Shown here one piece after another: positions 28,704 through 35,139 of a stretch of DNA of 48,915 bases. The stretch is from Acidimicrobiaceae bacterium. Its GTDB lineage: Bacteria > Actinomycetota > Acidimicrobiia > Acidimicrobiales > Palsa-688. The position numbers and the translations under genes are program-made. How positions within the stretch are numbered: the stretch's first letter is position 1; each line of letters starts with the position of its first letter. Under the pieces are notes generated by a model. It saw nothing but the letters and a program-made list of their open reading frames with translations. It was not told the DNA's origin and made no database searches. Where the stretch lies: positions 1 to 48,915 of the forward strand of contig JAUTXN010000131.1 in the NCBI GenBank assembly GCA_030838045.1, written 5' to 3'.

Positions 28704-28776
28704 GCCCCCTTAGCTCAGTCGGCAGAGCACAGCCATGGTAAGGCTGGTGTCGTCGGTTCGATTCCGACAGGGGGCT
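28704..28776 (+). tRNA. tRNA-Thr (anticodon GGT)
   Basis: Acceptor GCCCCCT/AGGGGGC; anticodon stem CAGCC-ATGGTAA-GGCTG; TpsiC GTCGG-TTCGATT-CCGAC. Confidence 0.95.
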
Positions 28777-28803
28777 CAGCCCTTCGGGAAAGTTCCTCCA
28801 CAG

Positions 28804-28876
28804 GGCGGCGTAGCTCAGTAGGCAGAGCAAACGGCTCATAATCGTTAGGTCGTCGGTTCAAGTCCGACCGCCGCTA
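28804..28876 (+). tRNA. tRNA-Met (anticodon CAT)
   Basis: Acceptor GGCGGCG/CGCCGCT; anticodon loop CTCATAA; TpsiC GTCGG-TTCAAGT-CCGAC. Confidence 0.93.
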
Positions 28877-28879
28877 CAG

Positions 28880-28951
28880 ACCAGCAGCACCAGCACGACC
28901 AGCAGCACCAGCACGACCAGCAGCAGCAGCACGACCAGCAGCACCAGCACC
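28880..28951. repeat. 18-bp tandem repeat x4 (ACCAGCAGCACCAGCACG)
   Basis: Units at 28880, 28898, 28916, 28934, between tRNA-Met and rpmG; no T on the + strand. Confidence 0.92.
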
Positions 28952-28983
28952 CCGACCACGGGGACAAGTGAAGGAGTCACAGC

Positions 28984-29148
28984 GTGGCGAAGAACGAGAA
29001 GCGGGTGAAGGTCACCTTGGCCTGCGACGTCTGCAAGCGGCGTAACTACATCACCATGAAGAACAAGCAGAACGACCGCGAGCGCATCGAGCTCAAGAAG
29101 TACTGCCGGTGGGATCGCCAGCACACAACCCACAAAGAGACCCGCTGA
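28984..29148 (+). CDS. rpmG: 50S ribosomal protein L33
   Basis: GTG start, GAAGGAG upstream; [54 protein letters not shown]. Absent from the ORF track because it is only 54 aa. Confidence 0.93.
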
Positions 29149-29200
29149 CCAGAGGGGCGAATACCGAGTAACCCGTGCCGTCTTTCCCGAGTCTTACCCA

Positions 29201-29794
29201 GTGATGTCGCCGGATCTCACCGGTCTGGTCACCGCGGCCAGAGCAGGCGACCGCTCGGCGTTCGACGAACTGGTCAAAGCCACCTATACCGACATGTACA
29301 CGCTGGCCTACAGACTCACGGGAAACGAAGAGGACGCACGCGACGTGGTGCAGGACGCCTATCTCCGGGCCTACCGAGGCCTGAAGCGTTTTCGCGGCGA
29401 CGCCCGCTTCACGACCTGGATGTACCGGATCACGGCCAACTGCGCCTCGACCGCCCTGGCGAAGCGGTCCCGCACCCGCCACGACGAACTCGACGAGGAG
29501 TTCGACCTGGTCGACGTCAACCCCGACCACGACCCGCAACGCCAGGCCGAGTTGGCCTTCGAGCGCGACGGCATCGCTCGGGCGTTGCAGGAACTGCCCC
29601 CCAAGCTCCGGGCCGTCATCGTCTTGCGCGACGTCTACGACCTACCCCATGAATCGATCGCGGTCGAACTCGGGATCACCGAGGCGGCGGCCAAGGTCCG
29701 GCTGCACCGGGCCCGGCGCAAGCTCCGCGAGCGGCTGTTCCCCCAGCGCTCCGATGGTTCCCTGATCGAGGGAGATGACGCCCATGCAGTCTGA
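29201..29794 (+). CDS. ECF-type RNA polymerase sigma factor
   Basis: AYRLTGNEEDARDVVQDAYLRAYRGLKRFRGDARFTTWMYRITAN; sigma4 LRAVIVLRDVYDLPHESIAVELGITEAAAKVRLHRARRKLRE. Confidence 0.94.
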   Translation: MMSPDLTGLVTAARAGDRSAFDELVKATYTDMYTLAYRLTGNEEDARDVVQDAYLRAYRGLKRFRGDARFTTWMYRITANCASTALAKRSRTRHDELDEEFDLVDVNPDHDPQRQAELAFERDGIARALQELPPKLRAVIVLRDVYDLPHESIAVELGITEAAAKVRLHRARRKLRERLFPQRSDGSLIEGDDAHAV

Positions 29795-30203
29795 CCAGCG
29801 GGACCACCAGCGCCGCCCGACCCGGCGCCTCACCTGCGAAGAGGTGGCCGCCGCCCTCCCGGCGATCGTCGACGGCACCGAGCGGGCCGACCGGCGGATC
29901 CAGCACCACGTCACCACCTGCCTGCGTTGCCAGGCGGAGTTGGTGCACTACCGCAAGCTCCTGCGGGCCCTCCGCCAGCTGCGCACCGAGTACCTCGAGC
30001 CCGCGCCCGGCGTCCTTAGCGGCATCCTGGCCAACCTCGAGGAGGCGGGCGAACGCGGTGCCATCCGCTCCCTGCTCTCGGGCAAACGGGCCGCCTACAT
30101 CGGCGGGGTGGCCGTCGCCGCCACCGCGGCCGGCGCCGCTGGGACACTGGTGCTCGTCTCCCGGGCCTCCAACAAGCGCAAAGGCATGCGTCTCGCCGGT
30201 TAG
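29775..30203 (+). CDS. anti-sigma factor with zf-HC2-like zinc finger and one TM segment
   Basis: LTCEEVAAALPAIVDGTERADRRIQHHVTTCLRCQAEL; hydrophobic AAYIGGVAVAATAAGAAGTLVLV; overlaps the sigma gene. Confidence 0.85.
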   Translation: MTPMQSDQRDHQRRPTRRLTCEEVAAALPAIVDGTERADRRIQHHVTTCLRCQAELVHYRKLLRALRQLRTEYLEPAPGVLSGILANLEEAGERGAIRSLLSGKRAAYIGGVAVAATAAGAAGTLVLVSRASNKRKGMRLAG

Positions 30204-30355
30204 GTCAAGGGTCGGGGAAAATGCCTCCCCGGTCGCTGCCCGAGCGCCGCGCCGGGTGCCCGCGGGGCAGCGGTAGGACCCGAGCGCCGCCCGCCTGCCC
30301 GCCGGGAAGCGAAGAGCGGGTGCTATCCTCGCTGTCTGGGACTCCCCTCCGCTAT

Positions 30356-30428
30356 AGGGCAGTAGCTCAATTGGTAGAGCACCGGTCTCCAAAACCGGCG
30401 GTTGGGGGTTCGAGTCCCTCCTGCCCTG
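30356..30428 (+). tRNA. tRNA-Trp (anticodon CCA)
   Basis: Acceptor AGGGCAG/CTGCCCT; anticodon stem CCGGT-CTCCAAA-ACCGG; conserved position before secE. Confidence 0.96.
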
Positions 30429-30468
30429 CTCCACCTGATCCACACCCTTCGAGAAGGTCATCGCCAAC

Positions 30469-30780: not shown

Positions 30781-31494
30781 ATGAGTGAAATAGACCAGAA
30801 CCCCACCAATGTCATGACCGACGCGCCCGTGACTGAAGCGCCCGAGGCAGCCGACGCGCCCGCCGAGGCGGTGCTGAGCGAGGACGAAGTCCTCGGGATC
30901 GCGGCCGAGGAGGACGTGGTCGAGGCCGCGCCCGTCATCGAGAGCGCCTACGACCGGCCCGGCCAGTGGTACGTCGTCCACACCTACGCCGGCTACGAGA
31001 ACAAGGTGAAGTCCAACCTTGAGAGCCGCATCGCCTCCATGAACATGGAGGAGCGGATCTTCGAGGTCGTCATCCCGCTCGAGGACGTCATCGAGTTCAA
31101 GAACGGCAAGAAGCAGGTCGTGTCCAAGAAGATCTTCCCCGGCTACCTGCTGGTCCGGATGGACCTCGACGACGACTCCTGGTACGTGGTCCGCAACACC
31201 CCCGGTGTCACCGGCTTCGTTGGCCTCGGCGCTCGCCCGACCCCGCTGTCGCGCAAAGAGGTCGAGGGCATCCTGCAGGTCAAGGTCGACGGCCAGGAGC
31301 CCACCAAGAAGGGCCGGCCCCGGTTGGAGTACGAGGTGGGCGAGTCGGTGCGTGTGAAGGAAGGCCCGTTTGCCGACTTCACCGGTACCATCGCCGAAAT
31401 CAATGAGGATCAGCTCAAGCTGAAGGTCCTCGTCAACATCTTTGGCCGTGAGACGCCGGTCGAGCTCGAGTTCGCGCAAGTCGCGAAGCTGTAA
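30781..31494 (+). CDS. nusG: transcription termination/antitermination protein NusG
   Basis: [24 protein letters not shown]...[30 protein letters not shown]. Confidence 0.97.
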
Positions 31495-32919: not shown

Positions 32920-33010
32920 CATAATCCGCCGAAGACATCCGGTGCGCCGAAGGCGCATAAATCCTGACGAGGCGAACAGGTCACCCTCCGGGTCCTCGTT
33001 CGCGCGTCGC
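32920..33010 (+). ncRNA. L10 leader (ribosomal protein autoregulatory leader)
   Basis: CCGAAGACATCCGGTGCGCCGAAGGCGCATAAATCCTGACGAGG upstream of rplJ matches the characteristic L10 leader layout. Confidence 0.75.
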
Positions 33011-33033: not shown

Positions 33034-34692
33034 ATGGACAACCCAAGGGCCGAGAAGGTCGCGGTGGTCACCGAAGTGCGCGAGCACTTCGAACGATCCA
33101 ACGCCGCCATCCTCACCGAGTACCGCGGTCTCACCGTGAAAGACCTGGCAGGCCTCCGTCGGACCCTTCGCGAGGCCGGAAGCGAGTACAAGATCTACAA
33201 GAACACCCTCGTTCGCTTCGCCGCCAACGACCTCGGCCTGGGCGAGCTCGACGCGCTGCTGGTCGGGCCCACCGCGATCGCCTTCGTCAACGGCGACGCC
33301 GCCGCGGTTGCCAAGGCACTGCGGGACTACGCCAAGACCAACCCCAAGCTCACCGTCAAAGGCGGCGTGCTGGGCAACAAGGTCATGTCGGTGGCCGACG
33401 CCGCGGCGTTGGCCGATCTGCCGCCCCGGGAAGTTGTTCTGGCCCGTTTGGCCGGCGCACTGGCCTCCCCGATGCAGACCTTCGCCGGTCTGCTCCAGGC
33501 CCTGCCCCGCGGCTTCGCCTATGGCCTGAAGGCCCTGATCGAGAAGCGAGGCGGTGTCCCCGACGCCGTCGACGCCGTCGAAGCCACCTCCGCTGAAGGC
33601 GAAGACTCCACCCCTGGAACACCGGCGCCTGAGGGCCACGACGCCGAGGCGGCTCTGCCGTCCGAGCCCGCCGAGTCGGCGCTATCGGCAACCGCGTCGG
33701 AGCCGCCCGAGTCTGCGACGGCGGTGTCCGAGCCGGCCGAGTCCGCCGTGTCAACGAGCCCGGAGCCCGCTCCCGCCGAGACCGCCGTGTCCGAGCCGGC
33801 CGAGTCCGCCGTGTCAACGAGCCCGGAGCCGGCTCCCGCCGAGTCCGCCGTGTCTGACGACGCCGTGGCGGACTCAGTGTCCGCCGCGATCTCCGAGCCG
33901 CCGCTGACGGAATCGCCCCCCGAGGGCGACGAGCCCGCGGCGGCATTGGTGGCCGACACCGAGCCCACCGACACTGCACCCACCGCCGCGGCCCCCGAGC
34001 CCGAGCCCACTGCGACAACGGAGCCCGAACCGTCCGCTACAGCACCCGAGCCCGCGACAGAGTCCGCTGCCGCCGAGCCGGCCCCGGCCGCAGGCCCCGA
34101 GCCCGAGCAAGCCGCGGCTGAGCCCGAGCCCGAGCAAGCCGCGGCCCCCGCGCCCGAGCCCGAGCAGGCCAGCGCCGCCGCTGCGGCGCCCGAGCCCGAG
34201 CAGGCCAGCGCCGCCGCTGCGGCGCCCGAGCCCGAGCAGGCAGCGGCGCCAGCGCCCGAGCCCACTGCGACAACGGAGCCTGCTCCCGCCGCTGAGCCCG
34301 CTCCCGCCTCCGAGGCCGAACCGTCCGCTACGGCGCCCGAGCCCGAGCCCGAGCCCGCCGCCCCGGCCGCGGCCGCGGCCGAGCCCGAGCCCGAGCCCGC
34401 CGCGGCTGCCGCCACTGAGGCGGAGGCGGTTGAGCCGCCGGAGTTGGAGAACGCGGCCGAGGCGGCGCAGACGCCTGCCTTGGTCAACGAACCGATCGAG
34501 GTCGAGCCGCTCGCCGCCCATGGCATCCCGGCCGACGTCGAACCGGAGATCCTCTCGGTCGAGCCCTCGCCCCCTGACGCCCCGACCGAAGCCGAACCCG
34601 AGACTGACGCTCCCGCCGTTGACGGTGAGAGCAACGCCCCGCCGCCGGCCGCAGCCACTGCGCCCGACGTCGTCACCCCGCCCGCCAACTGA
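33034..34692 (+). CDS. rplJ: 50S ribosomal protein L10 with a C-terminal acidic Pro/Ala/Glu-rich extension of about 375 aa
   Basis: Residues 1 to ~176 are canonical L10 (AAILTEYRGLTVKDLAGLRRTLREAGSEYKIYKNTL...GLLQALPRGFAYGLKALIEKRGG); the same frame continues as PEPEPA/SEPAESAVS-type repeats to a stop just before rplL. Confidence 0.93.
   Translation: MDNPRAEKVAVVTEVREHFERSNAAILTEYRGLTVKDLAGLRRTLREAGSEYKIYKNTLVRFAANDLGLGELDALLVGPTAIAFVNGDAAAVAKALRDYAKTNPKLTVKGGVLGNKVMSVADAAALADLPPREVVLARLAGALASPMQTFAGLLQALPRGFAYGLKALIEKRGGVPDAVDAVEATSAEGEDSTPGTPAPEGHDAEAALPSEPAESALSATASEPPESATAVSEPAESAVSTSPEPAPAETAVSEPAESAVSTSPEPAPAESAVSDDAVADSVSAAISEPPLTESPPEGDEPAAALVADTEPTDTAPTAAAPEPEPTATTEPEPSATAPEPATESAAAEPAPAAGPEPEQAAAEPEPEQAAAPAPEPEQASAAAAAPEPEQASAAAAAPEPEQAAAPAPEPTATTEPAPAAEPAPASEAEPSATAPEPEPEPAAPAAAAAEPEPEPAAAAATEAEAVEPPELENAAEAAQTPALVNEPIEVEPLAAHGIPADVEPEILSVEPSPPDAPTEAEPETDAPAVDGESNAPPPAAATAPDVVTPPAN
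33724..33849 (+). repeat. 63-bp in-frame tandem repeat x2 within rplJ
   Basis: GTGTCCGAGCCGGCCGAGTCCGCCGTGTCAACGAGCCCGGAGCC... copies at 33724-33786 and 33787-33849 with about 2 mismatches. Confidence 0.92.
34150..34221 (+). repeat. 36-bp identical in-frame tandem repeat x2 within rplJ
   Basis: GCGCCCGAGCCCGAGCAGGCCAGCGCCGCCGCTGCG at 34150 and 34186, partial third copy at 34222. Confidence 0.92.
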
Positions 34693-34731
34693 CCCGCCCA
34701 CCATTTTCCCCCGTAAGGAGCACTGACAACC

Positions 34732-35115
34732 ATGGCCACCAAGTCTGAAATCCTCGAGTCCATCGCCGGCATGACCGTTCTCGAGCTGTCCGAACTGCTG
34801 AAGGAGTTCGAGGAGAAGTTCGGCGTCACCGCCGCGGCGCCCGTCGCCGCCTCGAGCCCTGGTGGCGGCGGCGGAGCCGAGGCTGCGCCCGAGGTCGAGG
34901 AGCAGGACGAGTTCGACGTCATCATCACCGGCGCCGGCGACAAGAAGATCCAGGTCATCAAGGAGGTCCGTTCGCTTACCAGCCTCGGCCTCAAGGAAGC
35001 CAAGGACCTGGTCGACAGCGCCCCCAAGGCCGTTCTCGAAAAGGTCACCAAGGAAGAGGCCAACAAGGCCAAGGCGCAGCTGGAGGCGGCGGGCGCGACC
35101 GTCGAACTCAAGTAG
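34732..35115 (+). CDS. rplL: 50S ribosomal protein L7/L12
   Basis: [26 protein letters not shown]...[33 protein letters not shown]. Confidence 0.98.
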
Positions 35116-35122
35116 TTCGGCC

Positions 35123-35139
35123 GGGTTTGCGGCAAACCC
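35123..35139 (+). terminator. GGGTTT-GCGGC-AAACCC hairpin after rplL, candidate attenuator before rpoB
   Basis: 6-bp perfect stem just downstream of rplL; no strong U tract. Confidence 0.35.

Follow-up and report, generated by a model that had tools for sequence, protein, structure and literature searches.

Bacterial L10 is regarded as a short, conserved protein, and the ribosomal stalk is the recruitment site of translation GTPases. An earlier note described a giant acidic tail of about 375 aa on the L10 of an Acidimicrobiaceae bacterium (assembly GCA_030838045.1, contig JAUTXN010000131.1; the 48,915-nt stretch analysed is hereafter the window). We asked whether this tail is real, whether related bacteria share it and what might maintain it.

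The rplJ gene encodes an ordinary L10 core followed by a long acidic tail

Residues 1–174 of the rplJ product match Pfam Ribosomal_L10 (PF00466; 94.8 bits, cut-off 22.8) and the NCBIfam model for bacterial L10 (NF000955; 169.6 bits, cut-off 85), and this core is alignable end to end with the 173–180-aa L10s of Thermus, Thermotoga and Mycobacterium. The genome contains a single L10 copy, in the usual gene order rplK-rplA-rplJ-rplL-rpoB. At 552 aa, the protein exceeds the usual L10 length (about 165–180 aa, ending at or soon after the C-terminal helix, a typical value rather than a curated criterion), but it is still a member of the bacterial uL10 family, because most of its relatives are overlong too. 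In the tree of L10 cores, a well-supported clade unites the remaining L10s of the family to which the window's bacterium is assigned, and the window's protein falls outside it; weak signal, classification or gene transfer could account for this placement.

As the earlier note had recognized, the frame runs on beyond the core for more than twice its length, in this case 378 aa (residues 175–552), up to a stop codon (34690–34692) ahead of rplL, which begins at position 34732. The tail contains 110 Ala, 78 Pro, 67 Glu, 30 Ser, 28 Thr and 15 Asp, and its pI is 4.05, versus 9.65 for the core. Together with 82 Asp/Glu, it has no Phe, Trp, Tyr or Cys, and the basic residues, previously described as nearly absent, are wholly absent. 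Base composition alone would lead to about 68 Lys/Arg in the tail, and 8 are expected if the composition of each codon position is kept (probability of none, 2e-4); from the base-composition expectation and the substitution spectrum in relatives (see below), we ruled out that this absence is due to chance. GC3 remains at 78–89% all along the tail, as expected for a single unbroken coding frame, and the unbroken frame, the GC3 and the existence of tailed relatives exclude a frameshift or read-through artefact. The minus strand contains an open frame of 538 aa (33519–35135) mirroring the tail. We did not consider it a gene but the mirror of the GC-rich repeat, which lacks stops on the minus strand and so reads there as one open Ser/Gly/Ala frame.

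The 63-bp and 36-bp in-frame duplications noticed previously are real (Table 1), and the periods of all the tandem arrays found in the window's tail are divisible by 3. A search of the same genome for further copies of tail sequence found none at E ≤ 1e-3. The C-terminal tip reads ...TAPDVVTPPAN. The genome assembly is fragmented (380 contigs, 89.68% complete), and the exact repeat number and tail length are thus uncertain.

Table 1. Features of the rplJ region in the window
Feature	Position	Strand	Basis
Conserved rplJ leader element (CCGnAGACATCCGGTGCGC...CCTGACGAGG)	32936..32986	+	Conserved upstream of rplJ in tailed and tailless relatives
rplJ, full-length uL10, 552 aa	33034..34692	+	ORF, Pfam/NCBIfam matches; sole L10 in genome
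Canonical uL10 core, residues 1–174 (rRNA-binding domain and C-terminal helix)	33034..33555	+	Pfam/NCBIfam; AlphaFold2 pLDDT 92–97 across domain; Foldseek 5o60_I, 1zav_A
Long C-terminal helix, residues 132–173, putative L12-dimer-binding spine	33427..33552	+	AlphaFold2; Foldseek versus 1zav; L12 role by homology
Acidic Ala/Pro/Glu/Ser/Thr tail, residues 175–552, K/R-free, predicted disordered	33556..34689	+	Composition, AlphaFold2
63-bp tandem repeat, 2.2 copies, 94% matches, in frame	33717..33854	+	Tandem-repeat search
36-bp-period tandem repeat region (34154–34189 and 34190–34225 identical)	34073..34263	+	Tandem-repeat search, sequence reading
6-bp repeat (GCCCGA, Glu-Pro)	34335..34399	+	Tandem-repeat search
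rplL, bL12, 127 aa, ordinary, partner of the L10 spine	34732..35115	+	TIGR00855, 152.9 bits

The conserved leader element is probably the L10–L12 autoregulation site; the Rfam L10 leader was not called upstream of rplJ. The window's copy seems to be without the GGGCC/GGCCC hairpin present in many relatives. Further upstream, genes for tRNA-Thr, tRNA-Met and tRNA-Trp (28704–30429) precede nusG.

The tail is predicted to leave the distal end of the L12-binding helix

AlphaFold2, run on a shallow alignment of 34 sequences, produced a confident core with one long helix and assigned pLDDT values of 42–57 to residues 175–552, with neither helix nor strand. The tail is predicted to be disordered; low pLDDT from a shallow alignment is no proof of it, and the composition agrees. 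Foldseek matched the model to L10 in the Mycobacterium smegmatis 50S subunit (5o60_I) and in the Thermotoga maritima complex of L10 with the L12 N-terminal domain (1zav_A). By homology, helix 132–173 is the spine that binds the L12 dimers and, since the modelled tail starts at the end of this helix, it would exit at the distal tip of the spine, amid the N-terminal domains of L12, and not at the stalk base where it had been placed before.

How many L12 dimers are bound, and hence the L12 copy number, depends on how long the C-terminal helix of L10 is (PMC4592705). Here the helix is of ordinary length, as the core aligns with L10s of 173–180 aa, so that the proposal of the tail as a regulator of stalk stoichiometry finds no support; judging only by length, the core would match L10s bearing three L12 dimers. 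The tethering, crowding and recruiting roles that had also been suggested cannot be told apart from sequence.

Related bacteria carry the same kind of tail

The L10s of relatives were read directly from loci found by search or drawn from their genomes, and tail lengths derive from this reading; stop-to-stop open frames from genome searches overstate tails. The sample comprised 224 distinct complete L10s from Actinomycetota, skewed to close relatives and with some genomes chosen for their long open frames. Tails of at least 20 aa were present in 162 of them (72%, in a biased sample that is no census), and the median tail over all 224 was 55 aa. The range, from 0 to 378 aa, bears out the expectation of variable-length tails in related L10s; the window holds the longest, followed by one of 181 aa. 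All of the 162 tails are net negative and 121 are devoid of Lys and Arg, which together account for only 0.6% of the 10,788 tail residues in the sample. Acidity increases towards the tip, with the D/E fraction in the relatives' tails passing from 24% in the first 15 residues to 37% in the last 15. The sampled tails contained 286 tandem arrays, and in 283 of these the period was a multiple of 3. The arm is therefore in frame, of the same kind in most sampled relatives and evolving by in-frame gain and loss of repeats; growth by in-frame duplication, as the earlier note had read it, is supported, and the like tails of relatives argue against an assembly freak.

Tailed L10s occurred not only within the order of the window's bacterium but also in further orders of its class and elsewhere in the Actinomycetota. 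In several groups, among them family f7 and a portion of the window's own family, tails are almost absent; whole groups have lost the arm or never gained it, indicating that it is dispensable. In the genus-mate G198 (79%-complete assembly), we did not find the rplJ locus but only repeat-like matches. When mapped on the tree of L10 cores, presence of the tail required 24 changes versus 54.5 after shuffling; it is strongly clustered and therefore inherited, with repeated losses or gains. Tail length was nearly independent of GC content (Spearman 0.12–0.14 in the sampled L10s), and we discarded the tail as a GC-driven by-product. Together, these results indicate that the window's tail represents the extreme of a genuine but little-noticed trait that related bacteria share.

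Selection in relatives acts on charge

The selection tests covered tails of relatives; the window's own long tail lies outside them. Across 30 independent pairs, pooled pN/pS was 0.48 in the tails, with values below 1 in 29 of the pairs, and 0.14 in the core. Because transition bias could push the neutral expectation below 1, we gave more weight to the spectrum of single-base codon changes. Among matched G↔A transitions at codon position 1, A↔T exchanges occurred at 19.9 per 1000 opportunities versus only 2.5 for E↔K (Fisher p = 3e-4). Any alignment bias would oppose this deficit, because standard scoring prefers E–K over A–T pairs. Other charge-losing changes were also rare (E↔G, 2.4, and D↔N, 4.3 per 1000 opportunities) and, overall, charge-losing changes (EK, EG, DG, DN) were 5–8-fold rarer than neutral ones (AT, AV, PS; p = 3e-7). 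D↔E transversions, at 21.2 per 1000, came close to the rate of synonymous transversions (30.1), and changes yielding large hydrophobic residues or Cys were infrequent (6/2733). A +1 or +2 frameshift in the tails would yield 30–37% Lys/Arg, and no basic tail was found among the complete ones.

From this substitution spectrum, selection among relatives maintains acidity and excludes basic and hydrophobic residues while letting Asp and Glu swap; it preserves charge rather than sequence or length. The reading frame and the selection also argue that the tail is translated.

Some other proteins of the same machinery have acidic extensions

In the same genome, uS2 (L272, G000:C50:15222-15869 and downstream) possesses a 174-aa C-terminal extension, consisting of an Arg/Gln-rich stretch followed by a last segment of about 105 aa that is acidic and K/R-free, and a similar extension occurs in most sampled relatives. 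In NusG (30781–30945), the conserved domain is preceded by some 55 N-terminal residues that are acidic and K/R-free. We saw no acidic tail on uL17, S4 or RpoA, and found no acidic K/R-free stretch in the 9.3 kb around the alpha operon. Because uS2 and NusG carry them and uL17, S4 and RpoA do not, acidic tails occur on certain peripheral components of the translation and transcription apparatus but not on others, and are not wholly specific to the stalk.

What might maintain the tail

We consider it probable that the window encodes an otherwise normal uL10 whose L12-binding helix is extended at its end by a very long, disordered polyanionic arm, grown by slippage and loosely selected for acidity. 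The work of such an arm would be physical rather than sequence-specific, that of an electrostatic and entropic bristle: it could maintain the solubility of the L10–L12 complex, hold stray RNA and nearby ribosomes away from the stalk and perhaps, before L10 is assembled, compete with RNA for its basic face in the way that the acidic tail of Hfq does. A simple variant in which the tail neutralises the core is disfavoured by the lower basicity of tailed cores (median net charge of +1 versus +4 in tailless L10s), a comparison confounded by relatedness. The length of 378 aa would represent a slippage-driven extreme of the shared trait, rather than a new function. More tentatively, Actinomycetota, and Acidimicrobiia above all, might use a selected, charge-encoded polyanionic stalk arm, with a partner on uS2, for tuning the encounters of the ribosome with RNA, factors and other ribosomes, an arm that in this case has been stretched to about 380 residues. 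If true, every ribosome in the window's lineage would display an arm with 82 charges.

The tail could instead bring no benefit, its GC-rich repeats slipping in frame at a permissive C terminus and selection removing only the basic, hydrophobic or frameshifted versions, as these would bind rRNA or aggregate. Its freely varying sequence and length (0–378 aa), the repeated losses, the repeat-rich tail of the window and the relaxed pN/pS relative to the core all fit this explanation, which we nevertheless regard as rather unlikely: E→G and D→N changes, whose neutral products should be harmless, are also selected against (2.4 and 4.3 versus 19.9 per 1000 for A↔T), and tails have been retained through the greater part of the order and beyond it, in further orders and classes. 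An assembly artefact, either wrongly expanded repeats or a frame error, appears very improbable, because the same type of tail occurs in relatives from many independent assemblies and composition, frame and GC3 hold over all 378 codons; nevertheless, given that the genome is fragmented and short-read assemblies can mis-size repeats, the precise length might yet prove wrong.

An arm specific to the stalk that recruits or guides translation factors, as the acidic tail and Pro/Ala-rich hinge do in the P-stalk proteins of archaea and eukaryotes, would fit two observations: the tail exits from the end of the L12-binding spine, and its composition is like that of the P-protein hinge, a segment whose reach depends on its length (PMC3794596). 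We consider this role improbable, since the tail is without a hydrophobic C-terminal factor-binding motif, bL12 and its factor-binding domain are intact, and uS2, distant from the factor site, bears a similar tail.

Comparison with known systems

The window's protein shares with bacterial uL10 (PF00466; NF000955) the core, the place in the operon and the L12-binding helix, and differs from it by the 378-aa acidic tail, the PDB-matched bacterial L10s being of at most 180 aa. Long, disordered terminal extensions of ribosomal proteins, mostly of unassigned function, are reported to be common in bacteria, including Mycoplasma pneumoniae (PMC9534751). The L10 tail is likewise a long and mostly disordered terminal extension, and falls among those reaching more than 20 aa beyond the Escherichia coli protein and predicted to be disordered (378 aa, pLDDT 42–57); the passages covered of the main text of that work describe no acidic L10 tail, nor one this long.

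Like the P-stalk tails of archaea and eukaryotes (P0/P1/P2; PMC3794596), the L10 tail is flexible, Pro/Ala-rich and acidic (A, 110, P, 78, and E, 67, of 378 residues). Those tails, however, have a conserved hydrophobic-acidic tip, which the L10 tail lacks, and the latter occurs on a bacterial L10 that retains bL12. Two or more F/W/Y/I/L/M residues among the last 15 were found in only 3 of 141 tails, and the motif is absent from the tip of the window's tail; we thus rejected a P-stalk-like factor-binding tip.

The uS2 tail of the same and related genomes is, like that of L10, C-terminal, Ala/Pro/Glu-rich and nearly K/R-free, although it is shorter and preceded by the Arg/Gln-rich segment. By analogy, the nearest tested precedent is Hfq, in which an acidic C-terminal domain and RNA compete for a basic face of the protein (PMC5606850). 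Both would combine an RNA-binding domain with a disordered acidic tail that is most acidic at its tip, on average in the case of the relatives' L10 tails. Conversely, the L10 tail is much longer and does not go with a more basic core, and competition with RNA, established for Hfq, is putative for L10.

A literature search, with most subscription papers outside it, returned no report of an acidic L10 tail in Actinomycetota. The tail thus belongs to a known category, that of ribosomal protein extensions, but is apparently undescribed as a clade-wide, charge-selected feature of the stalk. Most of the sampled Actinomycetota L10s have a feature that is missing from L10 models and structures based on a handful of model bacteria, and a clade-wide acidic arm selected for charge would offer a clean natural series, from 0 to 378 aa, on what disordered ribosomal tails do.
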